Assembly: GCA_903813345.2 (NCBI GenBank)
Contig: CAIIXF020000008.1
Location: 2,363,341 to 2,427,340 of the forward strand
Reading direction: 5' to 3'
From: Owenia fusiformis
Lineage: Eukaryota; Annelida; Polychaeta; Sabellida; Oweniidae
Length of the DNA: 64,000 bases
The notes under the pieces are model-generated. The model saw only the letters and a program-made list of their open reading frames with translations, was not told where the DNA came from and ran no database searches. Positions 1,306-64,000 of the stretch are shown piece by piece. The translations under genes and the position numbers were made by a program. Position 1 is the first letter of the stretch. Each line of letters begins with the position of its first letter.

Positions 1306-4300
1306 ATGGAAAAAGGAGATAGTGCGAACAATTGTTTTAAACAGCAGCGATACAATGACAACGCAGAGCCAACACACAGTTCAAAAGAACAGGTAACATT
1401 TATCTGAGCTAGGGTGGTTGCATTGACCGTACAGGTGCACATACACACAGTGAGTGCTCACCATAAATGGGCTTCAAGTTGAAAGCCCATGCCATAAATT
1501 AATAAATGGCATCTTGTTTTTCTATCACCATACCCAGACCATGGTGACTTGAGACTTCATACTATCCAATAATGTCTAGATCACGGACTTGAGTCAAAGT
1601 TTTCGAAACTTCCATATAATTTTACAAGGATTGGAAACAAGCAGCCAGCGCTTTGGCAGAAGGTCATGTGATCACCTCTTGGAAAATGTGTGCTCCTGTT
1701 TGATCACATGATCATATAGTGCTATTTGATTGGTCATCGTATAGACTGGTGTACATAATTCTGATCTCATCATCCATTGCCAAAACGCTGACTGGATCTT
1801 ACCAGTCACCAAAAGAAAGTCAAATGAGGCTAATACAATTACAGTTATAATTTTGAGTGATAAGATACTGAAAGACTCTTGTTAATTTAGCTGTGTAAGT
1901 TTAAGTCACCAAGATGAGCTTTTTGAATTCCTGTTTCCAATCCTTGTGAAATTATATGGAAGTAAGTTTCAAAAGAAATGTTGACTCAAGTCCGTGGTCT
2001 AAATACACATTCCTAAATTTTGTATATTTTCCATTTTGTATACTCTCAACTACTAATGTATGGTCACTTGAAAATTCTCTTCTTCTTTAACATGGGGAAT
2101 CCTCACTTCAGCAAATCCAGGTGTCATTTATTTATGGTGAGCATTATAGTTCTTTCAAAGCCATCTCTGTATTGTGGCCTTGCTCCAGCCATGAAACCAA
2201 GAGGAGGGAAACCCCAGAGCTTAGGACTGATAATAAATACCAAATGTATATGAATATGAGATACCGGTATTTAAAAAACTCTATCCATTGCATTGCTTAT
2301 GACATCCTTCCCATCATCAAAAGTTGCCTTGTATATGTTGTTCATATTTTTCAGATATCCTGTTTACACACGTATAATATTATTATCTGCTTATTTTCTT
2401 TCAGAAAAATGTTGAGGACAGCTGTGAGCTTCTGTTTGAAGAATTTGCTGCTAAGGTTAAGGTGGACATTGGGTAAGTTTATTATTTTATTTTATTTTTA
2501 TGCAAAAATTGAGGTTAAGAAAATTTTGCCATCTGTTACTTACCTTAATTGCCACGATAACAATAAATAAGAAGGAGAAGGAGAAATAAACAAGAAAATT
2601 TAAGAAATTTAACGAAAAGTTTCATTTTTCAAAACAATGAAAGAGACCTTTTTTCTTTATTAACCCAAAATCAGTGGTGTTCAATGATGGTATCTACATT
2701 TAGTTTCATATACACCATCCTTTAACATTTTTCTTTCACATCATATGAAGCAATGTATCCACTGCGCATGCTCAATTTTTCTGTATACTCATATGAAACA
2801 AAGGCTGTCTTACACATTAAGGAAATATGTGTGTTTTGTAGTGTTCCTATTCTACATAGAGACAGACATATTCCATACTTGATTAAAGGACTACGGAATC
2901 TCTCAGAGTCATATGAGGTAAGTAGAGTAAAGGATGGGGAATCCCATTGGTACTTCAATGTAATGTTCCCTTATGGAGGTGTTCAATCTTCAGAGTTACA
3001 TTTTATAATAAGTTAAAAGGTTACTGAACTTTGAAAATTGTTTCAGAAAAAGTTATTTCAGAAAGTTTTCAGTAAAGGTAACTTTTAAAAAAGATTGATG
3101 TTGGCCAAATTGATACTTTCTCAATAACAAAATATTAGATTTTCATGTCCTCAAACATTCCAAAATACATTGTGAAATGCATTATTTTTCTAACATACCA
3201 TTACCTATATTAAATTTTCTGTTGCAGTGCTTAGATGCTAGCAGGCCATGGTTGTGTTATTGGATCCTACACAGTCTTGAGCTACTGGATGTTCCCGTTC
3301 CAGAAGATCTCAAGTCACAGTAAGTTCTTTCATCCATTTTGTATCAGGTAAACAAATCTGAAAAGCTCAAAGGAACCTTCATGTTGTTTGCCTCATCCTG
3401 TGTTTGTATGTCTTACGTAGAGAGGCATTTACTCTTTTTGGCTTTTACACTCATTTATTTGAGCTCATATGTTGAGCTAAACTATTGCTATCATCCATTT
3501 GTATGGTTGTATTTACTGTAAATGTGTTCATAAAAAAAAAAAAAGTTTAAATCTTACTTACCTAAAAGCTGCATCATTTTTGTACAACATTTAGCACTTT
3601 TGTAAGTAAAATATCTTTTTTAGTTATGACTTGATCTACATTTCAAATTTCTAAATTTCAGAGTTGCTCAATTCCTTAACAAATGCCAGTGTGAGAGCGG
3701 AGGGTTTGCAGGAGGCCCAGGTCAACAAGCCCATCTGGCCCCTACCTATGCTGCTGTAAATGCTCTATGTATACTTGGCACTAAGGAGGCCTACCAGGTC
3801 ATTGACAGGTATATTCACAATGTAATATATTAAATGGTCAACAGGCCCATCTGGCCTCCACCTATGCTACTGTAAATGATCTATGTATATTAGGCACCAA
3901 GGAGGCCTACCAGGTCATTGACAGGTATATTCACAATTCAATATATTAGAATTGCCTAATAATGTGGGTCAAATGCAAATAGTACATCCATTCACCAATA
4001 TTCGTTTTGTTAGAATTATGCTTTGATTTCAGCGATTGTATATGTCTCCCTAAAAACTACAACTCATTTATAGAGTAAGTTTCTCAATTATGGTTGAATC
4101 TTGAATTTCCTTGTGTAGATACCATAAATGAGTATGTGAGAACTGTAGTGTATTAACTTATTATTCCAGGGCAAAATTATACAGCTATCTTATGGCTATG
4201 AGGAACTCAGTTGGAGCTTTCAAGATGCATGAAGGAGGTGAAGTTGATATAAGGTACTTGTACTGAATAGTACTTACTTGTACCGACTTGTACTGAATTG

Positions 4301-7300
4301 TTTATAATGTCTATAAAACAGACTAAGTTTCTGATGATTCCTTTTCCCTCAAACTAATTCGCCAATGCACAGAAGAACTGTGTCAGAATCCCATCCCCTA
4401 AGTCAGCAGCGTAACCAGGATTTTGATAGACGGTACACGATGCTGAGGACCGAGCAAAACTATTTTGCTTTAATTTTTATGTTGGTGGTTCGAGGTTGGC
4501 GTCCGGCGTCTGTAACAATTTCTTACAACTTCCTATAAACTATAAACAAATACTGTTTAGACTGACTTCAATTTTTTTCTAAATCATCTACATGTTCTCA
4601 GAAGTTCAAATCTGACTTTAGATTTGACATTTGACCTTCAATGACCTTCTCAAGGTCAAAAAGGTCTTTTTTCAACTTGCTTCACATTGACTAAATTTTT
4701 TTTCAAAATCATCTACATGTTCTCAGAAATTCAAATCTGACTTTAGATTTGACATTTGACCTTCAAATCTGACTTTAGATTTGACATTTGACCTTCAATG
4801 ACCTTCTCAAGGTCAAAAAAGGTCAAAAAGGTCTGTTTTCAACTTGCTTTAAATTGACTATTTTTTTTTTCAAAATCATCTACGTGTTCTCAGAAATTCA
4901 AATCTGACTTAAGATCTGACTTAAGATTTGACATTTGACCTTCAATGACCTTCTCAAGGTCAAAAAAGGTCAAAAAGGTCTGTTTTGAACTTGCTTCAAA
5001 TTGACTAAAAAATTTTTTCAAAATCATCTATGTGTTCTCAGGAATTCAAATCTGACTTTAGATTTGACTTAAGATTTGACATTTGACCTTCAATGACCTT
5101 CTCAAAGTCAAAAAAGGTCAAAAAGGTCTTTTTTCAACTTGCTTCAAATTGACTAAATTTTTTTTTCAAAATCATCTACATGTTCTCAGAAATTCAAATC
5201 TGACTTTAGATTTGACATTTGACCTTCAATGACCTTCTCAATGTCAAAAAAGGTCAAAAAGGTATTTTTTCATCTTGCTTCAAATTTACTTAATTTTTTT
5301 TTCAAAATCATCTACATGTTCTCAGAAATTCAAATATGACTTTAGATTTGACTTTAGATTTGACATTTGACCTTCAATGACCTTCTCAAGGTCAAAAAAG
5401 GTCAAAAAGGTCTTTTTTCAACTTGCTTCAAATTGACTAATTTTTTTTTTCAAAATCATCTACATGTTCTCAGAAATTCAAATCTGACTTTAGATTTGAC
5501 ATTTGACCTTTAATGACCTTCTCAAGGTCAAAAAAGGTCAAAAAGGTCTGTTTTCAACTTGCTTCAAATTGACCAAATTTTTTTTTCAAAATCATCTACA
5601 TCTTTTCAGAAGTTCAAATTTGACTTTACAAGTTCTCAGAAGTTCAAATCTGACTTTAGATTTGACCTTTGACCTTCAATGACCTTCTCAAGGTCAAAAA
5701 GGTCTTTTTTCAACTTGCTTCAAATCTACTTAATTTTTTTTTCAAAACCATCTACATGTTCTCAGAAGTTCAAATCTGACTTTACATTTGACCTTCAATG
5801 ACCTTCTCAATGTCAAAAAAAGTCAAAGAGGTATTTTTTCAACTTGCTTCAAATTGACGAATTTTTTTTCAAAATCATCTCCATGTTCTAAGAAGTTCAA
5901 ATCAAACCTTCTTAAGGTCAAAAGGTATTTTCCAACTTGCTTTAAATTGACCAAATTGTTTTAGGTGGTGACATTTTGTCATGTTAATGCCTTGTCTTTT
6001 TTACAACAATTTATTTTTTGCTCCATCATTTAGGTTACACAACTGCGTACCCTCGAGCATGCCTGGTTAAGTGCCTGTTAGACAATACTGTATCTAATTC
6101 CCGACCCTCCCCACATTGGGGAGCCTCACACAAACCTTTATGTGTAAAATCGTTACCTATTTTAAAGTTATAGCAAAATAAAAAATGTGAATGTTTTTTT
6201 GCTCACTCTGTGTATTGTTTTTATACTCTTATATATGTATGTTTTCCAGGGGTGCATATTGTGCAGTTAGTGCTGCCAAGCTGACCCATATAGCCACTGA
6301 AGAACTGTTTGATAAAACACCCCAGTGGATCGTCAGGTAACTCACTGTCTTATTACTAAAATATTTTATCACCATGGTGATGCAATCTAGTGATATACCA
6401 GGTATAACACACAAAGTCTTGATTGTCATTGGTTTCACCAGAGCTATCCAACCCTTCTACCCTCTCCTATTTTCAGGCATTATAAAGGCATTCATATTGT
6501 ACATGGATCAGGTAAACACTCAAACACTTACATTAGTTAAACAAAACATTTTTTGTTTCATTTTCTTGCCCTGTTACATCACCATGTTTTGCAGTTGTGC
6601 ATACATATTTTCATTTGAATATATTATGTATCATTTCAGTTGCCAAACGTATGAAGGGGGCTTTGCTGGAAGCCAAGGTATTGAAGCACATGGAGGTTAT
6701 TCATATTATTTATCATTTCAGTTGCCAAACTTATGAAGGGGGCTTTGCTGGAAGCCAAGGTATTGAAGCACATGGAGGTTATTCATTCTGTGGAATTGCA
6801 GCCCTGGTTTTGTTGAACCATCAAAGATTATGTGACACACAAAGCCTATTAGTAAGTTTTATCCATTTATATACTCTGAGGCCCAAACAATAGCAGTATA
6901 ATTCCACACTCTGAGTGGGTCAAATGAATGACAATTTTGATGTGCTTTTAATCAATCAACACACAGTGAATGTCTGGTTTGGATAGGCTGCTGATAGTTA
7001 AATCTAATACCCAAAGAGAGTGTGTTGTTATTTTTGTCATACGAGTAAGTTAGATGAAAATTTCATATCTTAAGAGAATATACGAAAACCTCTTTTTGAA
7101 ACTGCTATTTGGGGCAATACCATAAACTGTTTTCTTCTATAAATATCATCTATCTAGAATGTATAATTTCTGAAGTTGAACTGTGTTTTGGTTAAGTTTG
7201 TACATAAATTCCAGTACTCATGATTGTGAAGTATACATTGACTGTGCTGTATAGTGCGAAGTGTTATAGTAAAATGTAATGATACTAGCCGATGATTTCT

Positions 7301-10300
7301 TTGTGTACTTATAGAGATGGACAGTGAATAGGCAGATGAGCTATGAAGGAGGCTTCCAGGGGCGGACCAATAAATTGGTAGATGGCTGCTACTCATTCTG
7401 GCAAGGAGGAGCTTTCCCATTATTACATCTAGTACTTTCTGCGCAAGGTACAATGTCAGAACTTGTGCTTTGACTTTTTTAAACATCATAAAGGTTACTT
7501 AACTGGATTTAAGAGAAAATACTTGCAACTGGATATGCAAAAAGTGTCATTAAGTTCAGGAATTGAACCCGAAACCATCACATTCTACCACTTTGGCATG
7601 GTATTTAGATGGCTCAAGCAGATTTTTATACTATTAAAATGCAAATAGAAAAAACAATGCTTTGATCTCTTCTATGTAATCATTTGCCACCATGTTATTG
7701 ATGTGTAGCTTTCTGTGACCCTTTGTTTTGAAATAAGATCCTCAAAATGTTTACATGGTGAATGTTATTTACATCCTGACAATTAGGTTTGCCATTCTGC
7801 CAATAATTAGGTAAACAGCTGCATGTAAAAGAATTAAGTAAACATACAAATGTAGTGATTGTTTCATTTGATTAACTTCTTTAGTGTGCATTATTATGAG
7901 AGAAAAATCTTGCTTGTTACAGATCCTGATGCCCTGAGCACTGAGTATTGGCTCTTCAATCAAGGTATGTAAAATTCTTGCCTTTAAAATAATGAAGACA
8001 TATTTTATAAAGTTGTTTGCCATAAATAATACATTTATTCATTCAGCTGGAACAAAATTGTAAAAGAATATTCCTCTAAGTTAGTTTACTTTCATTTTGA
8101 TATCAAATTTTCGTGACACTTTTTTGACACATGTTAATTATTAATGCTATATAATTGAATATGTATGCTATCTAAGATAAAATCCAGAAGTACCCTTCAT
8201 CAGATAAGTCTTATTTGGCATGAGGCCAATGATGTCATTTTCTAAAGTCAACTTCAAAAAGATCCCCAAATCTGTCACGGACCAAGGTCTATATATGCCA
8301 TCCTCTTCCTTAACAAGGTGTCGGAGTAAATCACCTTTATGGCTGATAAGGCTTACTCTATGGTTACCCCAATCAGCTACAATAATGTTATTTCCCTCTG
8401 TGCATACTCCATGTGGAGCGTCCAGCTTGCTTTCACTCGGGCCATCATTCCCATACTGCATCTGTAAATTGCCATCTCTATTAACCACTTGGATTCTATC
8501 AAGCTTCCAATCAGATACAGCAATATTATCATTTGCATCCACAGCAATATGCTGAGGGTATCCAAATTTTGCATTGCCTTCAGTACATGCTATCTTCCTC
8601 CCATTCTGATAATCAAGATGGAATATAGATTTAGTTTCTATGTCACTTACCACAAACTCTTTTTTAGTATTAAAGGCAATTGCGCATAGCCTTTTGCAGG
8701 GTGTTTTGATATCACGCAAATGGTTTCCATCCAAGTCATAAATGCTGATTGTATCCATGCCAACTTTAGCAAAAGCAAGGTTATTGTCGCATATTTTTGT
8801 TCCTCTGTATTCTCCTTGAATAGTGTTGATCAGAAAAGAATCTTCGTAGAATTGGATGCAATTTGGTCTGACGGCAACAAGTTTTGAGGTATTTATTACA
8901 ATCAAGTCATTGGTCCATTGGTTGGTACCTTCTATTTTTTGAAGTTTTTGAATTGTTTTTTGATCTTGGGGTCTGGTGTGATACACTTGGCATTTTATCA
9001 ATATGTCCATTAATTTGTTCACTAAAAAGCTTGTCCTTAGATCCTGAGGTCCTATGATCGTAATATCCCAAATCTCTCGACAGACAGGACATGGTATTTG
9101 TTTTGCTGGCTTTTTCTTTTCAACTAATGCTTTTAAGCAAGTTAAACAGAATGAATGCTGGCATTGTAGTACTTTTGGATCTTCTAATGTTTTGAGACAT
9201 ATCTTGCATTCCAAAATGTCACTAAAGTCATCAAATTTAATATTATTATGAGATGATGCCATTATAATTAAATTTTCTGTTAATGTACATTCCTTTTAAG
9301 AGGCGAAGGCTTTTCTAAAAATCTGTTTTGCTTTCGTTTTAAACATTTGTGACTCATTGAAAATAGTTGATTACCCGACTGAACAAAATTTGATAGGGAT
9401 ATAGAGAAGCTGTACATCCGTCCATCTGTTCGTTTATTCATTTGTTCATCTGTCTCGATCTAGCAAATCAAATACTGGTTGTTGCCTTGTGGGCATAGGA
9501 CCTCTGCTCGAGAAGTAGTTTTCAATATGGCCGCTCAATTAAAAATGACAAGCAATTTTTGTAAACAGTGTAATCATTGATGAATTACATGCTAGTAAAT
9601 GGATTAAATATTTGCTGATGCCTTATGGATATAGGACTCTGATCAATAAGGAATTTTCAAGTTGGCTGCTCATTTTGAAATAGCCACTTTGGTCAAAATT
9701 GTCATAGGCTTATGTCATATGGGCAAAAGACCTCTGGAAACAATTTCCAATATGGGCATTTAATTCAAAATGGGTCCCATCTTTTCTAACAACATGCCTT
9801 AAGGACATGGGACATGCTCAAGAGGGAATTTCCAAGATGGCTACTGGATTCAAAATGGAGTCCTTATTTCGTAAAATACGGAGTTTGAGAATGAATTTAT
9901 AATATAGTGTTACGTCACATCATGTGTGTAGATTTTGCCTTGTGCTTTTTTCTCTTGAAACCCCATGTTTTTGAAAAAAGGAGACAGTACTATTTTTCTC
10001 CTTCCTGGTTATTTCTGTCATGTTATATTCAACATGTAGATTGATTTGATAGAATAGGTTTTGTTTGGTGGGATTTCCTACACTGAGAAGTTGCTGTTAT
10101 CCTTGTGGGATTATTAATACTTTCCCTCAGTAAAAAGTTAACTGGTTAAGTTGAGCAAATATTGTGCAAGTGTCAGATACTTCCCACACAAGAAATTAAA
10201 TGCCATTAAAATGCTGTGTCTAAATTCAAACAGTCATGTCTACAGGCATTGGTTCAAAGTTCAAAATGTCAATTGTATATCTTGATAGTCAATATCTTTC

Positions 10301-13300
10301 AAAAAGCAATGTCACTCTGTACCTTACTTTTAATATCTGAAAAAGACTGGGATACCCAAATATAGAATTATTTGAAGATCTAAGATGCAGATATGTCCAA
10401 ACATATTGTATGATAAAGACTGATAATGACAATGACTGATCTATATTATAATAGTGATAACACTTTGTATGTGGATCTCCCTTGGTTGCAGTTTATTTGT
10501 TCCATTTCAGAGATTTCTACTTACAGACTGTTTTTGACTGAATTTGACTGAATTTTCAATGTAGATGCAATTTAAGTTTCTTATATGTTTCAGAAGCCCT
10601 CCAGAAATACATTCTTGTATGCTGCCAGCACCATGGAGGTGGTCTCATTGACAAGCCAGGGAAGTAAGTACATTATTAATTTCGGTTTTGGTTTTGTAAA
10701 CTTATACTCAAATTGAAATGAAATTTTAAACAAATGAATATTGTGGTTTGTATTGAGGGTAGATGAATTTGCAGTTTAGTCCTCTTATCTAGAATTAAAC
10801 TCAGGAGCTTATATCCCATAAAACATGTTTCTAATTAATAATTCTCATGATAATCAACATGCATCTTTAATAGACTTTGTTTTGATTAATATAAAAAGTG
10901 TTTGATGCTATTGCCTACATGCACATGTGATCTTAAATGAAGGAAAGTAGTCTCCCATGATGCCTCGTGGCAAAGGAGGTCTTCTTAATGCTTAGTCCAA
11001 CACTTTTGAAGCATTGGATTGTTTGTAAATAATATCTGGCCATTCCTGTTTGATTAAATATATATTCATGTTGGCACAAGCCTGCACTTGCATGTACATG
11101 TATACTTTACATAGTTCGTACAATAACATATACTACTGTAGTATAACACTAAACATTTTTTGGTATCCAAAATTTTATTTATGAGCAAAATCCAATTTTT
11201 CAATTTTTCCATAGTGGGCATATATATTATATCAGCCAGGATGTAAAGCTATATTATATACTGCCCACTTGTGAAAATACAACATTTTACAAACCTGATT
11301 TATATACAATAAGCAAATCCAAGTGTGGGATAAACAGTTATACATGATTTGATTGAAAGGAGGGGGAGTTGTTTGTCGGATGAAAAGGGAGAGTTTTTTC
11401 ATGCATTTCGTTTATGTCTTTCATCTAAAAAATATCAATACACTTTAAAACATTTTTTGACTATAAGATTGCACCATATAATCCCAAAAATATTTCTCAT
11501 TTTCAAGGATCATCTATGGATTAACACCAAGGTATTTTTAATTTTCAAACTTCAGAAGGCTGGGAATCATTGATAATCAACACTTTTGAATAATAAAAAA
11601 GCTGTTTTAAATAGGTTTCATATATGCCAATAATTTCTCAAATTGTGTATACTGTACACATTCCTTAATCCCTAGAATTTTCTCATTGAGGAATTTCCCA
11701 TAGAAATCCAATGGTACAGTTTCAAGCAGATTTTGATTCATTCGACAAACAACTCCCCCTCCTTAACAGAAGTGTACTGTACCAATATATACACATTTTA
11801 TTTGAAAATCTCAGTAAATGATTTGCTAAAGTTACAAATATATTTTGCATTATCTTATTCCATAATCACAAAAAGTAAAAATAGAAGTTTGTTATTATTT
11901 TTACAGTACATATAAATGGCATCAACATCCAGTATGATGTTTCATGTCATTAAAGCAGAACAGAACTCAACATAATGGAAAACATGCACAATCCAGGGCA
12001 GTGATCTCAACAGGATTTTTTCTCAAGTGGGTGCAAAATTATCATTTTCACAATTCAGACCAAAATTGGTCGAAATTAGCCCATTTTTCATGATTTTTTT
12101 CATTTTCAAGTAGGTGCAAATCAATTTTCAGGTGGGTGCAAGCCTATTTTTAAAATCTCAGGTGGGTGCTGCGCCCACTTGCTTTAATGCTGGGGTGATC
12201 ACTGGAGGGTATATAAAAATATACAAATTGAAAATTATTTTTTGATAAATCATAAAATAATTAAATAGTTTTTTTTTTCATTTTGAATATATATCATGGT
12301 AGAAATAAGCATCTTGTTTCATCAAGCTTCCGACCTGGGAACCGACGATGAGAAATAAGATGAAATGGTAAACCTTTTAAATCATTCTATAATCAGTGTA
12401 TTTACAAGACGAATCAGTTATAGCTTGTTTGTATGTGTCTTAAATATGACACATTCACTATTCTATATTTTACATATAGTGCACTATATACGAGAAAGCA
12501 GTAATATAAAGAAATAGATTGAAGACCTTTTGTACGTTCAGCTCCTTATTTTTAAAATACCCGGTACATCAACATTTTATGTCAATATCTCCAAATACTA
12601 CTTGCATACTCCCAGCTCTTCTGTGTTCTAAACATTTTTTATTTATTTATTACTTAACGTCTATACTCAACGGTGAATTTCAAAATGTTCGTAAAATACA
12701 ATAATGCACAAATAGAATTACAGAGCTGATTCCATTCATTACAAACTGTTCAACTTGTTGCTTCACACAGTCACTACAAGTCTAGTAGAACTTGCCTGAG
12801 TATAAAATCATAATAAAACTGATCAATTAAAGTTGCAGCAAAGAATAGTGTAGAGTGTAAAACCCTTTAATGAAGCATCTCAATGTTTAGTTGCAATCTT
12901 AAGTTAATTTGGAAAAAATAATTATTTAGAGATTATTCTCAACTCGTCTCTTGTCTTTATTGCACCTTTAATCAATGATACAGTTATACTTTAGATTTTA
13001 TGATTGATATTTTATGCAAAGAATACTGAACATTTAACACAATCTATCTGGGTGAAAGTGAAAGTACTTATTATTATATGTTGTCGAAAGCCATGAAGAC
13101 TAATGGGGTATATCAGAGTACATTACATTTAAAGGGACAGCAAAGGTTGGGGAGTGTAAAATATTGGAAGCAATCACAAAACATGCCAATTTTCCTCTTA
13201 CAATCCTTATTCATTTTCCAATGTAGTAATTGAAGATTTAAAATGTAAAAATGTCCAGATTCATTGTTCTTTGAGGAGTTGAGTCTCCCTCTTCATTTTT

Positions 13301-16300: not shown

Positions 16301-19300
16301 TGAGCACTGATTCACCCGAGAGCATAACTTTTCCAAAACATGTTAGTGTTATTTTTGGACCACTCACATTAATGTTTCGTCTAATTTTCCCTCAGAGTTT
16401 CCTTATCATTGTCTTAGGCCATATTTGTTGAGATATATGAATGTTCATTATTAAAATCTTGCCTTCCTTTGCAGTTGGAGAAGACTCGGCATTAGGTGTT
16501 ATAAGTCCCAGACCACGATAAATAAAAAATAACAACACAATGACATAGAACTGATAAACGTTTTCTCTTGTGCGTGTCAGCCATGGTCTACCAAATTAAT
16601 TGCTATTCAGTGGGAAGAAACTCATTTTTCAGTTTCCATTTTAATTTCCTGACAAATAGAGCGATCATCCCAGCATTTTTTCTATGATCTATATATTTAT
16701 GTGCCTTAGCAACTTCTGTTTTAGAGAACAATAAAACAATAGAAAAGATTACTTTACAATAATTCTAATCATCCCACATTGTAGACATATTTAGAATTAA
16801 AAATATGAAGAGAATGACAAAACCTCTTAAAACACATTTCTTAGGAAACAAATAGTGTGGTATTCTTGTTACTATGGCAACAGAGTTTTTTCTTTTTGTC
16901 ATTTTTGTCATACAGATTACCTATCATACCAGGACCAAATCCTGAAAATTTGAATTCAGTATCTTCATTAGTATCTTAGATATATAGGTTTCTTATAGTA
17001 TCCCCTGCAGATTTCATCGGAGTATAAGGAAAATGCTCTGAAGAGGGATGCCCAAGGATGCCACTTAACAGTTCTGGTATTTTTGAGGTCCCAACCCTCT
17101 ATTCATGGGAATAGTTAACCATTGTAAAGCTACTCATGGTTAACTGACAGAATTGATTGTATCTTCAACTAAGAAGTCAATAAAATGTTAAAACGAGAAG
17201 AAAACCACACCAACTTTCTTCTATTTACCAGGGGTAGGGCATTATAAAGTCATATTAAAATTACAAAATAGTACTTCATCACTATAATAGATGTATTACA
17301 ATATCAAACATAACTTGGGAATGTTGTTATAATACTAGTTGAGCTGTTAAAGTTATCATATTTTGCTTGAAGCTACAAATATAAAATAAGCAAGAAAAAA
17401 ATGACAAAAATTGCATATTTTTTCTAATTAATTGTATTTTTCCGAAACCAACAAAGATATCAACCTATGACTTTAGGATAGTATTCATCTCTGTACTAAC
17501 AATGTATGCTGTAGAACTCAGAACAATAGTTTATATATCCTTTGAGTTATGAACTAATATTATAGTACCCCCTAAGATAATTTCCTAGGGGGGTAAAAAC
17601 GCTAAAATACAGTGTCGTGACCACCCCGTTGAGCTGTCATCTTTTAATATCTTTATCAGCATGAAAAACTGATCCAGAAAAAATAGGTCTGTTGCTTTTT
17701 CTAAAAAATGCCTCAAAAAGTTTTTCCCTTGAGATATTCTGAAATTGGAACCTGTCTAATAGATTGATTACCTCACTTAAGAATATCCACTTTGTCATTG
17801 TTACTAAAGATTTTTTCTCAATGATATCAATGTTTCTAGTTGACTAGGAAAATGGAATAATGGAGGGGGATATGAGATTGAAATAAATAAAATACTTCAT
17901 CAAGTATGAGAAATCATCATGCATCATGTTCAAAGTCCAATGAATCAGAAAATTAAACATGGTGGGTTCAAATATAAGAAGAGAGTTGTTTCACTCTGTA
18001 GGATAGTTAACTCAACTCCTGAAGAGGTACCAATATGTAATCTGTATTTTCAAATACACATTAAAATGTACAAGATGATGACAGCATTCAGTCCCCCCTC
18101 CGATTAAATCATTTTACAAAAGGGGTAAAGAACTGATGATGCTCAGCTATAAGCCAATCCTTCAAATAACAATAACCTGCACTTCCCTCATTAACTATTT
18201 CCACTGTAGATATAACCAGGCTTTAACACCCATTGTGGTGTTACAGATCATTTTAAAACAGAACAAAAGTCAACACAATGCAACATACATCATCCAGGTT
18301 ACTTGTATATATAAAAGAAAACAATTCAGAAGATATTCTTCAACAATTCAGTTTGTTTAATGTTTATTGTTGTTGAATCTTGCTGTTTGTGATTTTAAGT
18401 GCAATTATCTAAAATATATTTAAGAGATGTGTGGATAATGATCTTGATGTTTGCAAATATGTTCATGATTGTAAATAAATGTCATGTTTAATATTTGTAT
18501 TTTACTTCAAAGAGTTGTCCTCTGAAATCTCCTACTAGAAGATTCCCCTCATGATCTATAGTCACTGCCATTGGGTGATACAGTCCATCATCCTTAGTGA
18601 AGAGGTGTTGTAGGAAGTTACCCTCTGAGCTGATTAAACTGACTCTATCATTCAAGAAATCAGCTACTATGATGTGCTCTCCATCAGTGCACATACCTTC
18701 TGGCCAATTCAACTCTCCTTCACCTGATCCATGAGTACCATACTGCAGCAGCTTCCTACCCTGTCTACTCACCACTGTAATACAGTTCCTCTGCCAATCA
18801 GACACAATCACATTGTTGTTGTTACTTACTGCAATGTACCGAGGCCAACCAAACAACTGAGTATCTGATGTTGTATGCAGTACTTCACCAGTGTGATAGT
18901 TTATGTGTGATATAGTCTTGGTATTCAAGTCACTTACAACTAATTTACCATCACTATTACATGCAATCCCATATAGATTAGTGAATGTTGTGGTGATGTC
19001 TCTTTCATGCTGACCATCTTGAGTGTATATGTTGATGACACCACTACCACCACCACCACTCCACCATCCACTTGTAAATGCAAGATAGTTATCAGGTGTA
19101 AGTGTGACACATCTCATCTCCTTCTGTATTGTCTTGAACAGATTCAAGTTATGGTAGATTTCAACACATTCATATCTTATGATTACTAACCTCTGTGCAT
19201 CTATTGCTACAACATCATTAATACTGTTAAGAAAAGACTGTTTGGATCCTTTTAAATCAATCTTCTTTATTTTGGGTTTTCTTAGCCTCATTGACCCAGG

Positions 19301-22300
19301 AATTCTCTGTGTAGAATAGAAACCAGTTAGAGAACTAACAGGAGGAACTGATGTGCTGTTAATTGATGTAGCTACCTGGGAGATATTACCTTGACTTGTC
19401 ACACTTTGATTTTTTCTATTTATTTGACGACTCTGATTATCTAGTCTTGTCTGACTGCTTATTATACTCTCACTATAACCCATTGCACTCTGATGGCATT
19501 TTGCAACCTGATCATTATTTCTGCTCTGATTAGCTGTTCTCTCCTGAGCATCTATCATTCTTTGATTACTCATTCTTGCCTGATCACCCATTCTACCCTG
19601 ACCACTCATTCTGTTCTGACCACTCATTATACTTTCTCCTCCTGAAATAAGCTCATCGGGCATTCTTCTTTGATTGCCAGTTCTCCCCTGATCATCCATT
19701 ATATTCTTCCCTCCCATTGCAATCCAATCACTAGTTCTCTGGTCTACCATTATATTCTGCCTTCTTGTTGCATACTGATCGCCTATTCTCCACTGGTCAC
19801 CTATTGTGTTCTGCCTTCCCAATGCAGACTGATCACCCATTATCCTTTGGTCACCCATTATATTCTGCCTCCCCATTGCAGACTGATCACCTATAATCCT
19901 TTGGTCACCCATTATATTCTGCCTTCCCATTGCAGACTGATCAACCATAACCCCTTGGCCACCCATTGTATTCTGCCTTTCCAATGCAGACTGATTACCC
20001 ATTATTCTTTGGTCACCCATTATATTCTGCCTTCCCATTGCAGACTGATCACCCATTGTCCTTTGGTCACCCATTATGTTCTGCCTTCCCATTGATGACT
20101 GATCACCAGTTATCCCCTGGCCACCCATTGTATTCTGCTCTCTCCTTGCACCTTGTCTACTTTCTATATTCTGACCAATCATTCCACTCTGATTACCAAT
20201 TACTGATTGGTAGTTCCCTGCATTTTGAATTTTGCGTTTACCTAGCAACATTCTTAGATTTTGATTTTTATCTTTTTTAGGTTGAATTGATCTGTGTATG
20301 TGGCCATCAATGTTAAGGTCTTGTTTATTTGATGGACATTGAACAGTTGTTTCACTATGGGCACTTGGGGGAATATCATAAGCCATTGGATTTTGAACAC
20401 TCATATTACTTTGGACACTCAGTGGATTTTCATAAGTCATTGGACTTTGAACACTCATATCACTTTGGACACTCGGTGGATTTTCATAAGTCATTGGACT
20501 TTGAACACTCATATCACTTTGGACACTCGGTGGATTTTCATAAGTCATTGGACTTTGAACACTCATATCACTTAGGACACTCGGTGGATTTTCATAAGCC
20601 ATTGGACTTTGAACACTCATATCACTAAGGACACTAGGCGGGTTTTCATAAGTCATTGGACTTTGAACACTCATATCACTAATGACACTCGGCGGATTTT
20701 CATAAGTCATTGGACTTTGAACACTCATATCACTTAGGACACTCGGCGGATTTTCATAAGTCATTGGACTTTGAACACTCATATCACTAAGGACACTGGG
20801 AGGGTTTTCATAAGTCATTGGACTTTGAACACTCATATCACTAATGACACTCTGCGGATTTTCATAAGTCATTGGACTTTGAACACTCATATCACTAAAG
20901 ACACTTGGTGGATTTTCATAAATCATTGGACTTTGAACACTCATATCACTAAGGACACTCGGCGGATTTTCATTAGTCATTTGACTTTGAACATTCATAT
21001 CACTAAGGACACTCGGTGGATTTTCATAAGTAACTGAGCTTTGAACATTTACATCACTTGTTGAACTACTTATATCTGGGTTTGATTGGGGCCCAAGTAC
21101 CTCTTGGTCTAAACTTGCTGATCCCCTATTATTGGAACTTCTGCTTTGACTCCCTGAAGGAGTCTGTTGATCAAGATTTGGAATCTCATGTCCTTTTAAT
21201 CTTATACAATCTTTAAGTAGTTCAATGTTGTTACCTTTGTCTTTATGGGCCTCAAGTCCAGTCAAAGCTCGGTCCCAAAATGTAACCATGTTGACATCTT
21301 CTGCATCCCTTTGTCCAATATATATGCCACGGCTACGTTGTACCTCAGCTATTCTACTCCTTGCTATATAGTTCCGAATTTTAGCACTCAACTGATTGTA
21401 CATATGCCCTGCAGCAACATCAATGTCATATATCATATGTTCTTTGTGGTGAAGACTAAGGCATGTATTACATATGATGCTATCATCAGCTTCACAATAC
21501 ATTGTTAAAGGTTTATCAGGGTGATTGTCACAGTAAGCACATACTTTTAAGTCCTTTAACTTGTTGCTTCGGAAGTCAGCCTTGAGACTAGCTGCCCCAT
21601 CTGGAGGTACCTGCCATTCTTCACGACAAGTTGGACATGGGATTTTGGTACTCCCTGAGTTGCTCAATATTAATCCTTCTACACAATGCTTACAGAAAGA
21701 GTGATGGCATGGCAGGAAACGGGGATTGGTGAGCTCTCCAAGGCATATCTTACACTCTAAAAGGTCTTCTTTGATTGAAGCGGATGCCATATCTTATGTT
21801 ATTCGAGCTGTCTTTGTTAGTATGTACTTTATTATAACAGCTTTAGTCCTTTGACACATTTACATTATTTGTAACAATAAACTGTTTATTGTCTATCCTC
21901 TGTCTGTCAAGTGACCTGGTTCTTTCACATTTCACAAGTCAAATTCTTGTTCATTTTCTCTGACATTCATGTTTCCTCATTGTCTGTTTTACTATTTAAT
22001 ATTTTTCATCTTCATGAATTTACACAGAAATATTTTTCATATTTTACGTCTATATCTAAGACTTGGTTTTCACTCTTATACCCTTCAATGTCTTTTGCTG
22101 TGGTTTGTTTCGGGTAAATGGCACAGTTTCTGCAGTCATACAACCTAAAAGTATGAAAGAGAAATGTTTAAAAGGCTGTTTGTTTCTACTCATTTATATT
22201 ATAATATACTCGTCCAGGTAGAAACAAAAATGAAACTGAACTGATCTTTCTTATAAGAATATTTGTTCATTTAATTAATATTTAACACATACTCCAAAAT

Positions 22301-25300
22301 CCATCCAATTCAAAAATCAATACTAAGTTTATGTACACGAGAATTTAGATTATCTCATGCTCTTGTCATTTAACAATCAAAACCTAAAAACCATACTAAC
22401 CAAAACTAGAAAATAACAATAAAACTCCTGACAGTTCCTTGTATGACACAGTCATACAATAAAAAGTACTTATGGGAGATATATCTTTATAATCTATCAA
22501 CACTTACCTATTTTAGGTGTGCAAATCCTTGTGTTTGTAATGGACGTTTATTTTAAAATGAAAGATCTGTTTGAGATCATGTATTGTTTTAAAGATGTTT
22601 AAGAAGTCAAGGTAATGGCAAAGTGGTGTGATAAATACAATCTTGTCAATTATTATACCTAAAAATATCTGTTAAGATGTGTTAAGATTACCCAAGTACA
22701 TATTGATCATACTTGAATAAGCTCAAAGGGCAACATTGCAGAAGAACAAAAGTGGTTATCGTGAATTTTGCATTTATGATTGTTTTTTTTGTAAACGTTT
22801 TTGTAAAAATTCCAGGATAGTCACCTGTTCAACTTGAAATTTTCACAGTTGCAAAAGCAGACAATTGCCAAGATCTGATTAAGGCATATGGGTAAATTAC
22901 TTGCTGACTGGGCATTTTGATTTTAGGAAAAACACTTATCAGATTTTCTCCAAACTCACACACATGATGGAGGATATCAAGTTCTAGAGCTGATAAGCTT
23001 TTGGGTGGCCATCTTGTTTTCTGGAGGCCATTTTGAAGGTTTTACGATGGTGTGATCTCATTCATGTCATTTGCCTTGTTAAACATTGATAATGATATAA
23101 ATAGAACCCCTCTTTTCTTTTATAATATTATTTCCAAAGTTTAAAAAATTGCTTAGAAAGTGGTTTGATTACCTCCTTAACTGAAAAAGTGTGAGTATTT
23201 AAATTCAATTTGTAACTTTTCATGATGCTTACCTGGTGTGTAATCTTTTTAACTTTGATATTTTCTTAGAATGATTGTGCCGAAGTATATTAATGGTGCA
23301 TGTTACAGATCATTAAGAATTTAAACATGTTTGGGTTATTTAGGACAAAAATTTCAGACATTGTCATTTAAGTCTACTGTACTTATAACGTCTGTGAATA
23401 TATCTTCCAGACCCAGGGACTACTACCACACCTGCTACTGTCTTAGTGGTCTGTCTGTGGCTCAACACTTCATGTCTTGTAACATTTGTATATGTATATT
23501 CCAGATCCAGGGACTACTACCACACCTGCTACTGTCTTAGTGGTCTGTCTGTGGCTCAACACTTCATGTCTTGTAACATTTGTATATGTATATTCCAGAC
23601 CCAGGGACTACTACCACACCTGCTACTGTCTTAGTGGTCTGCCTGTGGCTCAACACTTCATGTCTTGTAACATTTGTATATGTATATTCTATACCCAGGG
23701 ACTACTGCCACACCTGCTACTGTTTCAGTGGTCTGCCTGTGGCTCAACACTTCATGTCTTGTAACATTTGTATATGTATATTCCAGACCCAGGGACTACT
23801 ACCACACCTGCTACTGTCTTAGTGGTCTGCCTGTGGCTCAACACTTCATGTCTTGTAACATTTGTATATATATATTCCATACCCAGGGACTACTGCCACA
23901 CCTGCTACTGTTTCAGTGGTCTGCCTGTGGCTCAACACTTCATGTCTTGTAACATTTGTATATGTATATTCCATACCCAGGGACTACTGCCTCACCTGCT
24001 ACTGTTTCAGTGGTCTGCCTGTGGCTCAACACTTCATGTCTTGTAACATTTGTATATGTATATTCCAGACCCAGGGTCTACTACCACACCTGCTACTGTC
24101 TTAGTGGTCTGCCTGTGGCTCAACACTTCATGTCTTGTAACATTTGTATATGTATATTCCATACCCAGGGACTACTGCCACACCTGCCACTGTTTCAGTG
24201 GTCTGCCTGTGGCTCAACACTTCATGTCTTGTAACATTTGTATATGTATATTCCAGACCCAGGGACTACTACCACACCTGCCACTGTTTCAGTGGTCTGC
24301 CTGTGGCTCAACACTTCATGTCTTGTAACATTTGTATATGTATATTCCAATCCCAGGGACTACTACCACACCTGCTACTGTCTTAGTGGTCTGTCTGTGG
24401 CTCAACACTTCATGTCTTGTAACATTTGAATGTGTATATTCCAGACCCAGGGACTACTACAACACCTACTACTGTCTCAGTGGTCTGTCTGTGGCTCAAC
24501 ACTTCATGTCTTGTTACATTTGAATGTGTATATTCCAGACCCAGGGACTACTACCACACCCGCTACTGTCTTAGTGGTCTGTCTGTGGCTCAACACTACA
24601 TGTCTTGTAACATTTGAATGTGTATATTCCAGACCCAGGGACTACTACCACACCTGCCACTGTTTCAGTGGTCTGCCTGTGGCTCAACACTTCATGTCTT
24701 GTAACATTTGTATATGTATATTCCAATCCCAGGGACTACTACCACACCTGCTACTGTCTTAGTGGTCTGTCTGTGGCTCAACACTTCATGTCTTGTAACA
24801 TTTGTATATGTATATTCCAGACCCAGGGACTACTACCACACCTGCTACTGTCTTAGTGGTCTGTCTGTGGCTCAACACTTCATGTCTTGTAACATTTGTA
24901 TATGTATATTCCAGACCCAGGGACTACTACCACACTTGCTACTGTCTCAGTGGTCTGCCTGTGGCTCAACACTTCATGTCTTGTAACATTTGTATATGTA
25001 TATTCCAGACCCAGGGACTACTACCACACTTGCTACTGTCTCAGTGGTCTGTCGGTGGCCCAACACTTCATGTCTTGCAACAACTTAACTAGTAAAACTA
25101 TCATAGGGGATCCAGACAATGAATTGGTAAGATGAAACATAATATTTAAAGACTGAGAATCTAGAAATGACCATAAATGGTTCATCTATATTTACGTCTG
25201 TACACATTTCCCATTATATTTTTAAAAATTTAAGCCCAAGACTCAATGATACTTTGAATGAGAGTGACAGCATGAGTTCAAAGTCTAGGATAAAAAACAG

Positions 25301-25868
25301 TGCAATATATTGTCACATGGTAAGATTTTTTCACACATTGCAAGATTTTCTTCAGTATCAAGTAAAAGAATGCATTGATTTGTGAGGGAACCTTTTTGCA
25401 AGGGTTTTCAAGGTTTCACCTTTTGACATTTTTTTACCAGCATAAGCTCATGTCTTGCTATTACATTCTTTATGATAGATTTTATAGGTTTTCTCTCAAA
25501 TGCCAATTTTACTGAATCTAAGGTAGCCATTGATGATGTAATCTCATTAAGAAAACCTATATATGAAATACATTGTTGTGATTGGCTGGAATTTGGTATA
25601 TCCTGCCAAGCTACGTGTGACTATTTTTTGAGTATATGTATGGTCACAAAGTTTGACCATACATAACAAAAGATGGAATCTAAAATATCACTTTCTGCGA
25701 CTAGATTCCATATTTTCAAACATTGACTTTTCCGTTTTCCAGGTAGAAACACACCCAGCCTACAACATTGGTCTTGAAGCTGCTCTGAAGGCTGGCCAGT
25801 ATTTCAATGGACTACCTCATCCTCTAGCTCCAGAACATAGGCCCTTAGTGACTGAAATAGACCCTTAG
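1306..25868 (+). CDS. FNTB: Protein farnesyltransferase subunit beta, 13 coding exons
   Basis: This is the catalytic beta subunit of the cytosolic zinc enzyme that, with FNTA, attaches farnesyl to CaaX cysteines of Ras-like proteins and lamins. Exons: 1306-1392, 2405-2472, 2842-2917, 3228-3319, 3662-3808, 4170-4253, 6250-6336, 6722-6851, 7315-7447, 7923-7964, 10594-10663, 25009-25126, 25743-25868. Their lengths sum to 1260 nt (419 residues; human is 437), with GT/AG at every junction and no phase conflict. Diagnostic peptides are CLDASRPWLCYWILHSLELL, LAPTYAAVNALCILG, EAHGGYSFCG, FQGRTNKLVDGCYSFWQ (two zinc ligands, Asp and Cys) and DYYHTCYCLSGLSVAQHF (third ligand, His). Exon 1 is the least certain: its ATG opens 29 poorly conserved codons with a good Kozak-like context and correct phase. 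Intron 11 is 14.3 kb and hosts an antisense TRIM-like gene. AATAAA at 26005-26010 is a plausible poly(A) signal. Exons 5, 8 and 12 and the stop codon all lie in tandem duplications. Confidence 0.93.
1576..2003. mobile_element. Fold-back/MITE-like element in FNTB intron 1
   Basis: Two arms of about 65-70 bp face each other at 1576-1642 and 1933-2003. Both contain CACGGACTTGAGTCAA and CCATATAATTT(T/C)ACAAGGATTGG, in opposite orientation and with a few mismatches. The 290 bp between them has no open frame. This is the layout of a non-autonomous inverted-repeat DNA element. No target-site duplication was fixed. Confidence 0.7.
3721..3949 (+). repeat. 116-bp tandem duplication across the FNTB exon 5 donor
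   Basis: The last 88 nt of exon 5 and about 24 nt of the following intron (3721-3832) are repeated at 3837-3949 with roughly 90% identity. The second copy keeps the donor AG|GTATAT at 3924/3925, exactly 116 nt downstream of the proper donor at 3808/3809. Using the second donor would add 116 nt, which is not a multiple of three. Confidence 0.9.
4460..5960. repeat. Tandem array of about nine 126-167 bp units rich in AGGTCA half-sites
   Basis: This array fills most of FNTB intron 6 (4254-6249). The core TTTGACCTTCAATGACCTT recurs at about 4631, 4787, 4934, 5082, 5218, 5366, 5502, 5669 and 5787. Each unit contains the hairpin TGACCTTCTCAAGGTCA, followed by one or two further AGGTCA copies, then CAACTTGCTT, a T-run and CATCTACATGTTCTCAGAA. 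The first unit is preceded by GGCGTCTGTAACAA sequence. The same lead-in plus one unit occurs alone at 43555-43830, so the array is an expanded copy of a dispersed element. Confidence 0.9.
6626..6790 (+). repeat. 82-bp tandem duplication of the FNTB exon 8 acceptor and 5' part
   Basis: TATCATTTCAG plus the first ~65 nt of exon 8 occur twice, with acceptors at 6638-6639 and 6720-6721, exactly 82 bp apart and almost identical. The downstream copy leads into the rest of exon 8 and the donor at 6852. Splicing to the upstream acceptor would read through the second acceptor and stop after about 30 codons. Confidence 0.95.
8168..9262 (-). CDS. Intronless RING-NHL protein, C-terminus damaged
   Basis: This 364-residue gene has no intron and lies antisense within FNTB intron 10 (7965-10593). 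Residues 19-61 form a C3HC4 RING finger (Cys19, 22, 34, His36, Cys39, 42, 58, 61), which suggests an E3 ubiquitin ligase. There is no B-box or coiled coil. From about residue 120 the protein carries NHL-type beta-propeller blades, for example PQHIAVDANDNIAVSDW and PHGVCTEGNNIIVADWGNHR. The overall plan is TRIM2/3/32/71-like but shortened. The final blade breaks after RPWSVT: a different frame at about 8241-8275 encodes RFGDLFEVDFRK followed by a stop, which matches the end of the larger relative at 18488-21790. The annotated last ~40 residues therefore look like the product of a small deletion plus frameshift. The gene may be decaying or may have a new C-terminus. TTTATT at 8034-8039 is a possible antisense poly(A) signal. 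Confidence 0.8.
   Translation of the reverse strand: MASSHNNIKFDDFSDILECKICLKTLEDPKVLQCQHSFCLTCLKALVEKKKPAKQIPCPVCREIWDITIIGPQDLRTSFLVNKLMDILIKCQVYHTRPQDQKTIQKLQKIEGTNQWTNDLIVINTSKLVAVRPNCIQFYEDSFLINTIQGEYRGTKICDNNLAFAKVGMDTISIYDLDGNHLRDIKTPCKRLCAIAFNTKKEFVVSDIETKSIFHLDYQNGRKIACTEGNAKFGYPQHIAVDANDNIAVSDWKLDRIQVVNRDGNLQMQYGNDGPSESKLDAPHGVCTEGNNIIVADWGNHRVSLISHKGDLLRHLVKEEDGIYRPWSVTDLGIFLKLTLENDIIGLMPNKTYLMKGTSGFYLR
9480..9850. repeat. Diverged direct repeats in FNTB intron 10
   Basis: Four diverged copies of a motif like GCCTTRWGGRYATRGGAC, each followed by a 'TTCCAAGATGGCYRCT'-like tract, start near 9480, 9617, 9711 and 9783. Spacing is irregular (about 137, 94 and 72 bp). No coding potential was seen. 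It is probably an old tandem satellite fragment. Confidence 0.45.
10664..13650. other. Proximal part of FNTB intron 11, mostly featureless
   Basis: Non-coding AT-rich DNA. I see the fold-back element at 11357-11764 (listed separately), a 60-bp inverted repeat at about 11213-11271 with AGTGGGCA/TGCCCACT ends, and short direct repeats of CAAGTGGGTGCAAA type at 12025-12180. The open frames here are short and unconvincing. Confidence 0.6.
11357..11764. mobile_element. 408-bp element with 28-bp terminal inverted repeats
   Basis: The left end reads AAGGAGGGGGAGTTGTTTGT (continuing CGGATGAA) and the right end at 11737-11764 is its reverse complement with one mismatch. The interior is AT-rich with no gene. 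This is a MITE-like element in FNTB intron 11. Confidence 0.75.
13653..17756. mobile_element. 4.1-kb element with terminal inverted repeats over 500 bp long
   Basis: Left arm 13653-14178 and right arm about 17203-17756 are reverse complements over more than 500 bp. Both start GACAGGTTCCAATT and contain CAACGGGGTGGTCGTGAC and CCCTACCCCTGG. Both ends are flanked by TA (13651-13652 and 17757-17758), as expected for a TA target-site duplication. The 3-kb interior has no ORF above about 70 codons and no transposase motif that I could see. It is therefore a non-autonomous long-TIR element within FNTB intron 11. Confidence 0.85.
18488..21790 (-). CDS. Intronless TRIM-like RING/B-box/NHL protein with two 18-residue repeat arrays
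   Basis: This 1100-residue open frame is antisense in FNTB intron 11. Residues 13-55 are a C3HC4 RING (Cys13, 16, 28, His30, Cys33, 36, 52, 55). Residues 87-118 form a type-2 B-box (Cys87, His90, Cys99, Cys107, Cys110, His115, His118). A short, possibly helical stretch (about 125-210) replaces the usual long TRIM coiled coil. Residues ~248-480 hold 13 copies of an 18-residue unit like SVQSPMTYENPPSVLSDM. Residues ~546-730 hold a second, Gln/Met/Gly-rich array based on MGRQNIMGDQRIMGDQSA. NHL blades (about 850-1100) end the protein, with WPRYIAVSNNNNVIVSDW and WPEGMCTDGEHIIVADF clearly seen. It is a probable E3 ligase whose propeller binds RNA or protein in relatives such as TRIM71 and Brat. 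The ATG follows directly with the RING. TTTATT at 18363-18368 could be its poly(A) signal. It shares architecture with 8168-9262, so the two are probably duplicates or retrocopies of one family. Confidence 0.88.
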   Translation of the reverse strand: MASASIKEDLLECKICLGELTNPRFLPCHHSFCKHCVEGLILSNSGSTKIPCPTCREEWQVPPDGAASLKADFRSNKLKDLKVCAYCDNHPDKPLTMYCEADDSIICNTCLSLHHKEHMIYDIDVAAGHMYNQLSAKIRNYIARSRIAEVQRSRGIYIGQRDAEDVNMVTFWDRALTGLEAHKDKGNNIELLKDCIRLKGHEIPNLDQQTPSGSQSRSSNNRGSASLDQEVLGPQSNPDISSSTSDVNVQSSVTYENPPSVLSDMNVQSQMTNENPPSVLSDMSVQSPMIYENPPSVFSDMSVQSPMTYENPQSVISDMSVQSPMTYENPPSVLSDMSVQSPMTYENPPSVLSDMSVQSPMTYENPPSVISDMSVQSPMTYENPPSVLSDMSVQSPMAYENPPSVLSDMSVQSPMTYENPPSVQSDMSVQSPMTYENPPSVQSDMSVQSPMTYENPLSVQSNMSVQNPMAYDIPPSAHSETTVQCPSNKQDLNIDGHIHRSIQPKKDKNQNLRMLLGKRKIQNAGNYQSVIGNQSGMIGQNIESRQGARREQNTMGGQGITGDQSSMGRQNIMGDQRTMGDQSAMGRQNIMGDQRIMGNQSALERQNTMGGQGVMVDQSAMGRQNIMGDQRIIGDQSAMGRQNIMGDQRIMGDQSALGRQNTIGDQWRIGDQYATRRQNIMVDQRTSDWIAMGGKNIMDDQGRTGNQRRMPDELISGGESIMSGQNRMSGQGRMGDQARMSNQRMIDAQERTANQSRNNDQVAKCHQSAMGYSESIISSQTRLDNQSRQINRKNQSVTSQGNISQVATSINSTSVPPVSSLTGFYSTQRIPGSMRLRKPKIKKIDLKGSKQSFLNSINDVVAIDAQRLVIIRYECVEIYHNLNLFKTIQKEMRCVTLTPDNYLAFTSGWWSGGGGSGVINIYTQDGQHERDITTTFTNLYGIACNSDGKLVVSDLNTKTISHINYHTGEVLHTTSDTQLFGWPRYIAVSNNNNVIVSDWQRNCITVVSRQGRKLLQYGTHGSGEGELNWPEGMCTDGEHIIVADFLNDRVSLISSEGNFLQHLFTKDDGLYHPMAVTIDHEGNLLVGDFRGQLFEVKYKY
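19590..20160 (-). repeat. Second 18-bp/54-bp coding repeat array
   Basis: This array encodes the Gln/Gly/Met-rich tract of the TRIM-like gene. The base unit is six residues (MGDQxx, 18 bp). It is organised into 54-bp higher-order units (GRQNIMGDQRIMGDQSAM type) that degrade toward the NHL side. The sequence is unrelated to the neighbouring Ser/Pro array despite the identical 18-residue period. Confidence 0.9.
20345..21060 (-). repeat. 54-bp coding minisatellite, 13 units
   Basis: This lies inside the TRIM-like gene. Each 54-bp unit encodes an 18-residue Ser/Pro/Met/Tyr block. Central units differ by only a few bases. Variation is concentrated at the residue before SDM (Leu, Ile, Phe or Gln), and units degrade at both edges, the usual pattern of an array expanding from its middle. 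The antisense strand is also open because 54 is a multiple of three, but shows no protein-like features. Confidence 0.95.
21791..22920. promoter_or_regulatory. Upstream region of the TRIM-like gene, no further gene seen
   Basis: About 1.1 kb of AT-rich DNA upstream of the minus-strand start at 21790. It probably contains the promoter and any 5'UTR intron of that gene, but I cannot point to a specific element. The plus-strand open frames here (for example from 21911) look random. Confidence 0.35.
22921..23070 (-). repeat. Single inverted copy of the 145-bp GTGTGAT-family unit
   Basis: The segment carrying TATCAAGTTCTAGAGCTGAT, GTGGCCATCTTGTTTTCTGG and CGATGGTGTGATCTC is the reverse complement of the units arrayed at 28631-29509, including their terminal ATCACACCATC. 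It is a solo relative of that element within FNTB intron 11. Confidence 0.75.
23411..25080 (+). repeat. Eighteen 94-bp copies of the FNTB exon 12 acceptor and exon
   Basis: Exon-like starts after CCAG occur at 23411, 23505, 23599 and so on to 25009, exactly 17 steps of 94 bp with no indel. Each unit has about 72 nt of exon (CCCAGGGACTACTACCACAC onward, encoding RDYYHTCYCLSGLSVAQHF) and about 22 nt of acceptor tract (TTTGTATATGTATATTCCAG). Units differ by a few substitutions (CTTAG/TTTCAG, TCTGT/TGCCT). Only the last copy continues into unique exon sequence and the donor at 25126/25127. Reading from any earlier copy reaches a stop in the next copy. Confidence 0.97.
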
Positions 25869-25943
25869 TAACTGAAATAGACCCTTAGTAACTCAGCTAG
25901 CCACATTAGTTATTCAATAAGACCCTTAGTTAATGATCTAGAC
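25842..25943 (+). repeat. 20-bp tandem repeat carrying the FNTB stop codon
   Basis: CCCTTAGTRACTGAAATAGA repeats with an exact 20-bp period at 25842, 25862 and 25882, with a diverged copy at 25923. The first copy is read as CCC TTA GTG. Because 20 is not a multiple of three, the second copy is read CCT TAG, which makes the FNTB stop at 25866-25868. Confidence 0.9.
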
Positions 25944-63659: not shown

Positions 63660-64000
63660 AGGTACCACCAAGTTTCAGAGGAGCTTCCATCAAGTTTCAA
63701 AGGAGCTTATATCAGGTTTAAAAGGAGCTTCTATTCAGTTCCGAAGGAGCTTCTATCAAGTTCCAAAGGAGCTTCTATCAAGATCCAAAGGAGCTTCTAT
63801 CAAGATCCAAAGGAGCTTCTATCAAGATCCAAAGGAGCTTCTATCAAGTTCCAAAGGAGCTTCTATCAAGATCCAAAGGAGCTTCAATCAAGTTTCAAAG
63901 GAGCTTCTATTAGGTTTCAAAGGAGCTTCTATTCAGTTCCAAAGGAGCTTCTATCAAATTCCAACGGAGCTTCTATCAAGATCCAAAGGACCTTCAATCT
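63660..64000 (+). repeat. 22-bp minisatellite at the window edge
   Basis: The unit TCCAAAGGAGCTTCTATCAA plus two bases repeats about 15 times with a 22-bp period and continues off the edge. It follows an acceptor-like TGTATGCAG at 63628-63636. All three plus frames stay open because the unit lacks stops in any phase. It lies in or next to FUT8 intron 4. Confidence 0.9.

Follow-up and report, generated by a model that had tools for sequence, protein, structure and literature searches.

The FNTB gene of the annelid Owenia fusiformis carries, across the border between intron 11 and exon 12, a tandem array that is structurally an extreme mirage, the name given to minisatellite-like duplications of an intron-exon boundary in the Adh3 and globin genes of lancelets (PMC3087553), to which a further account adds TnC and PGBD5 (PMC3902484). 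The repeat unit spans the border (26 nt of the end of intron 11 and 68 nt of the start of exon 12), its 18 copies of 94 bp follow one another head to tail in minisatellite fashion with a 95% match, and the authentic exon is intact and joined to one edge copy, copy 18, through which a frame of 419 amino acids is read. What is new here is how large the array is and that borders of this kind recur in an annelid genome. We consider it quite probable that the array is a mirage grown from a border duplication, that exon definition picks the acceptor at position 25009, and that the upstream copies are near-neutral, low-level use of them as decoys ending in decay. Where acceptors have the same 60 bases ahead of them and are set apart essentially by distance from the donor, nature provides a clean test of how a 3' splice site is chosen: by proximity to the donor (exon definition) or by being the first one met from upstream (scanning).

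The FNTB gene and its 18-copy array

The window, by which we mean the whole stretch of 64,000 nt that was analyzed, contains a complete FNTB gene on the forward strand, with 13 exons, 419 codons, and a frame that is intact in all exons; its product aligns with residues 13-405 of human FNTB (E 1.5e-154). Exons 1-6 lie at 1306-1392, 2405-2472, 2842-2917, 3228-3319, 3662-3808, and 4170-4253, and exons 7-11 at 6250-6336, 6722-6851, 7315-7447, 7923-7964, and 10594-10663. The authentic exon 12, of 118 nt (25009-25126), consists of copy 18 and the remainder of the exon and is followed by the donor GT at 25127; exon 13, with the stop codon, lies at 25743-25868. About 14.3 kb of intron precede exon 12, and an intron of 616 nt follows it. 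A reading made earlier from the sequence only had placed the HTCYC segment at the start of exon 12, and the alignment to human FNTB bears this out, the segment being encoded by the last copy; we take its His to be the zinc ligand.

The array occupies 23385-25076 on the forward strand. The 18 exon starts, which the sequence-only reading had described as spaced exactly 94 bp apart, do keep an exact register (23411+94i, from 23411 to 25009), with a shift autocorrelation of 0.94 at 94 and of 0.20-0.31 at the remaining shifts within 90-98, and TRF reports 17.9 copies. Copies 1-17 provide decoy exon starts over 23411-25008. The consensus of the 26-nt intron end in the array unit is GTAACATTTGTATATGTATATTCCAG, and its acceptor AG is present in 12 of the 18 copies (decoys 1, 2, 3, 5, 8, 10, 12, 13, 14, 16, and 17, and copy 18) and lost in 6 of the 17 decoys (changed to AT in copies 4, 6, 7, and 9 and to AA in copies 11 and 15), so that the earlier claim of an acceptor in every copy stands for the former and fails for the latter. 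The same reading held that the last copy alone reaches the donor, and by contiguity the GT at 25127 does belong with copy 18 only.

Copies 5, 8, 10, and 18 share exactly the same 60 nt ahead of the acceptor, and copies 2, 3, 16, and 17, all of which have the AG, depart from them at a single position. Position, not this local sequence, must therefore discriminate among these acceptors, and, within the 60 nt, the earlier proposal of a branch point usable in the last copy alone is contradicted.

The intron end of copy 1 (ACTTATAACGTCTGTGAATATATCTTCCAG) is different from that of copies 2-18 and is presumably the ancestral one, whereas copies 2-18 have a hybrid end, TCTTGTAACATTTGTATATGTATATTCCAG, with some variants. 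The repeat junction is similar both to CTTATAAC in the intron and to CTTGCAAC in exon 12. Among the inner copies (2-17), pairs differ on average at 5.1 of 94 positions (range 0-11), and the mean difference from these inner copies is 10.4 for copy 1, which stands clearly apart, and 6.4 for copy 18, which does so only slightly; in lancelet mirages, the boundary units are described as escaping homogenization (PMC3087553; PMC3902484). Copies 3 and 5 are identical, as are copies 11 and 15, and neither pair is made of neighbors, a sign of turnover within the array.

Coding outcome of each splice choice

When exon 12 is started at any of copies 1-17 and read to the donor at 25127, a premature stop results in 17 of 17 cases, a count that includes the six decoys without AG, which are unable to be ordinary acceptors. 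For copies 11-13 the stop lies inside the copy that supplies the start, and for all others in the next one, the start at copy 17 meeting its stop in exon 12 itself; the expectation that upstream choices lead to stops was right. The intact 419-aa frame is open through copy 18 only, and the dependence of intact FNTB on the last acceptor is upheld. Skipping of exon 12 also truncates the protein.

Each of copies 1-17 also contains a candidate cryptic donor (CTT|GTAACA in 16 of them and CTT|GTTACA in copy 12), at a position where copy 18 reads CTTGCAACA. Of the 9 positions of CAG|GTAAGT, CTT|GTAACA matches 5, and the authentic donors of FNTB, 12 in number, match 5 to 8, the weakest being that of exon 9. 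The cryptic donor thus equals the weakest authentic one, making internal poison exons possible. Two neighboring copies read as one exon up to the cryptic donor make 162 nt, and for copies 3-4, 5-6, 8-9, and 16-17 this exon has an open, in-frame reading; such a cassette adds 54 residues directly ahead of the HTCYC segment.

The variation among the decoys looks neutral. Across copies 2-17, 14 of 68 columns vary in the exon part and 6 of 26 in the intron part. When the authentic reading frame is applied, 2 of the exon-part variants are synonymous and 12 nonsynonymous, against an opportunity of about 14:53, a ratio that, with such small numbers, is about as expected under neutrality. Copy 18 alone has two further changes, at exon positions 46 and 52, both of which we read as synonymous from their codons. 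The upstream copies are most likely non-coding, near-neutral debris.

Choice of the productive acceptor and rival explanations

We suggest that a founding tandem duplication arose across the border of intron 11 and exon 12, probably at the similarity between CTTATAAC and CTTGCAAC, and that repeat turnover would have carried the array to 18 copies, in a geometry that leaves the remainder of exon 12 joined to the last copy only. With the remainder of the exon and the donor within 118 nt of copy 18 alone, the exon is probably defined from the donor to the nearest acceptor: U1 at 25127 would be bridged to the nearest upstream acceptor at 25009, the 118-nt exon being recognized as a unit, and the rest of the array would be removed with the 14-kb intron. 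Some decoys, copy 17 foremost and then copy 16, may be used at a low level, their products being removed by decay. The special distal-acceptor mechanism of the earlier reading finds no support and would be unnecessary if the exon is defined in this way. Two counterpoints remain. The exons predicted from the starts of copies 17 and 16, of 212 nt and 306 nt, are also of ordinary size, and exon definition alone does not exclude these two copies; and copy 1, which retains the original intron end, is met first in an upstream scan.

A human parallel is found in intron 7 of factor VII, where the exon is followed by 37-bp repeats that vary in number and carry near-identical splice sites, and where the most upstream donor alone, the one next to the exon body, is described as normally used, oriented scanning being given as the reason (PMC6627357); a second source, PMC3778950, checked for intron 7, has nothing on these repeats. 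As far as the former account goes, factor VII and FNTB share highly homologous repeats at an exon border with near-identical splice sites. They differ in that the factor VII repeats lie on the donor side, with the first site in the transcript used, whereas the FNTB array lies on the acceptor side, with the productive site last. Since the exon-proximal acceptor of FNTB is the last in the transcript, plain 5'-to-3' scanning would choose the wrong one.

The closer likeness is to the lancelet mirages (BflGb6, BflGb9, Adh3, TnC, and PGBD5), which also repeat an intron end with an exon start, or an exon end with an intron start, in tandem, and also keep the splice signals in many, not all, of their copies. 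The FNTB array has 18 copies where the two BflGb6 haplotypes have 6 and 3 units (PMC3087553); the present case differs also in its annelid genome and in that several unrelated genes were sampled. The open-licence literature, mainly as titles and the starts of abstracts, yielded no mirages outside lancelets.

The upstream copies could instead serve regulated unproductive splicing, much like the tunable prenylation switch of the sequence-only reading: the capacity for farnesylation would be set by sending an adjustable fraction of FNTB transcripts to decay through decoy acceptors or poison exons of 68 nt. Such a role would be in keeping with the premature stop from all 17 decoy starts, with the 11 of 17 decoy acceptors that are intact, with the possible cryptic donor in every decoy, and with the presence of arrays at all three prenyltransferase-beta loci found. 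We nevertheless regard it as unlikely, because similar arrays occur at kinase and chaperonin-family loci and because the copies vary without sign of constraint, some having lost their AG. The switch is left unsupported by this shared architecture and these neutral-looking copies, and also by the lancelet genes, whose splicing is reported or suggested to be normal: RT-PCR of Adh3 and globins is said to suggest that regular splicing is undisturbed (PMC3087553), and the absence of aberrant mRNAs is stated for the Adh and TnC mirages and suggested for that of PGBD5 (PMC3902484). The copies might also be caught in the process of exonization, with pairs of them acting as a 162-nt in-frame cassette that uses the acceptor of the first and the cryptic donor of the second. 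The intron-gain model proposed for the globin mirages of lancelets is of this kind (PMC3087553), and the four open in-frame pairs would each supply 54 residues; but the cryptic donor is weak and the extra residues would come just ahead of the HTCYC segment, and we judge this reading very unlikely. Intron gain by tandem duplication brings new GT/AG pairs, as CTT|GTAACA...CAG does in FNTB, which differs in needing no new intron.

Two further explanations would take the array or the gene out of consideration altogether. Long near-identical arrays are difficult to assemble, and one lancelet mirage seems to be aberrantly assembled in the draft genome (PMC3087553), so that the FNTB array could have been misassembled or collapsed, with a true copy number that is different or small. 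This is quite improbable, given that the copies differ from one another (at up to 13 of 94 positions) and in irregular order, that the array matches a single place in the 498-Mb assembly in a search that skips very common words (seven weaker matches are confined to the downstream flank of the query), and that the same structure is present at other loci. That the locus is a pseudogene, with FNTB made elsewhere, is a suspicion raised by three border duplications within one gene, and we find it extremely unlikely: 13 of 13 exons are intact and in frame, and no further FNTB-like locus is present among the matches listed (at least 10).

Mirages at other exon borders of the genome

Two more mirages lie within FNTB itself. 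One, at 3720-3948 on the forward strand, duplicates the end of exon 5 and its donor (116 bp x 2, 104/116 identical), with a decoy donor after 3924 beyond the authentic exon at 3662-3808; the other, at 6621-6786 on the same strand, duplicates the acceptor and the start of exon 8 (82 bp x 2, 80/82 identical), with a decoy start at 6640 ahead of the authentic exon at 6722-6851. Use of the decoy results in a stop in either case.

The prenyltransferase-beta Pfam matches, at least 10 in number, fall in three places, namely FNTB and two more, and the tested exon of each of the other two best matches a geranylgeranyl beta subunit (type-2 on contig C6, type-1 on contig C10). A second FNTB locus by which transcripts could bypass the array was considered and discarded, since none appears among the matches listed. 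Both paralogues have an acceptor mirage at one exon. That of the C6 Rab geranylgeranyltransferase beta (L009 14-1181; 140-bp units, 8.4 copies by TRF) has eight acceptor sites, all CAG, of which the last is the authentic one, and a search pattern that requires the AG and one that does not find the same eight. That of the C10 type-1 geranylgeranyltransferase beta (L010 5510-6932) has 73-bp units and eight sites, one with an altered AG. Inserted DNA of about 900 bp, whose ends show a 12-bp inverted match, interrupts the C10 array, and the C10 exon starts with GTGGGT directly after the AG, so that most copies read AG|GT and resemble recursive-splicing points.

Similar structures were sought in two unrelated families, with loci identified only to Pfam family and exon edges taken as the ends of Pfam matches. 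From 144 kinase matches, the first 30 were examined for self-matches and array density only, and 60 exon regions were scored, hand-picked from the 114 that followed with the exclusion of near-complete domains, several near-identical paralogues, and further rows; border-spanning tandem duplications were found at 3 exons (4 edges) of these 60. Of six compact Cpn60/TCP-1 loci, chosen from 60 matches and comprising 37 scored exon hits, four have arrays at exon edges, and these arrays reach 5 of the 74 edges of the six loci. The pooled sample thus has arrays at 9 of 194 exon edges; one of the nine, L106 (30-bp unit), is nearly all intronic. Unit lengths show no sign of frame keeping, 3 of 14 being divisible by three (4 of 14 if the unit of L077 is taken as the 51 of TRF and not as 52). 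One kinase exon on contig C5 (L047, 325-1006) has mirages on both sides, with 3.8 copies of an 86-bp unit at the acceptor and 2 copies of a 71-bp unit at the donor, and its acceptor decoys resemble each other and encode residues that differ from those of the authentic exon. If the sampled rate (9/194 edges, hand-picked) holds, many genes of the genome give the same test of splice-site choice, and mirages would be recurrent, not a lancelet curiosity, loading introns with decoy sites and possibly with new exons.

Whether exon edges are hotspots depends on the null. The 60 kinase regions and six Cpn60/TCP-1 loci contain 22 arrays, of which 9 extend to an exon edge. Random placement of one founding unit per array predicts 2.3 (0 of 4000 draws reached 9), whereas random placement of whole arrays predicts 8.2 (P 0.43), so that the single-unit null, which represents the founding event, favors a hotspot and the whole-array null does not. 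With a tolerance of 15 bp, 5 of 14 kinase arrays are counted (1.6 expected, P 0.017), including one, L094, that lies beside an edge and not across it, and 5 of 8 Cpn60/TCP-1 arrays (1.6 expected, P 0.007). In the window, which was selected for its array, FNTB edges are reached by 3 of 11 arrays, against expectations of 0.25 for single units (P 0.003) and 0.95 for whole arrays (P 0.06). The only claim that we make from these figures is that arrays do not avoid exon edges. A stronger version is possible, if rather doubtful: tandem duplications may arise preferentially at exon-intron borders, in a manner coupled to transcription or splicing, leaving a sizeable share of genes with decoys and dependent on exon definition, of which FNTB would be the extreme. 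Were such a preference true, the genome would offer a natural collection of cases in which exon-proximal choice of 3' splice sites can be told from choice by scanning.

As to the assembly in which these loci lie, the erythrocruorin linker family, an annelid family, has three matches on contig C6, and searches run without a positive control gave no match for the GFP family or the mollusc haemocyanin domain. The assembly comprises 498.3 Mb, of which twelve contigs of 32-62 Mb total 477.5 Mb; a 505.8-Mb assembly with 12 chromosome-scale scaffolds has been described for O. fusiformis (PMC9977687).

The window holds several other repeats and reading frames. A 20-bp tandem repeat at 25837-25893 includes the FNTB stop codon, and a change in its copy number could therefore alter the C terminus. 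Two minus-strand open frames, of 1101 aa (18488-21793) and 375 aa (8168-9295), are nested antisense in FNTB introns 11 and 10, respectively; by motif, both look like RING/NHL (TRIM-like) genes, and the longer one has 54-bp tandem repeats inside its frame. Further minisatellites lie at 54517-54872 (18 bp, 19.8 copies) and 63669-63999 (22 bp, 15.0 copies).
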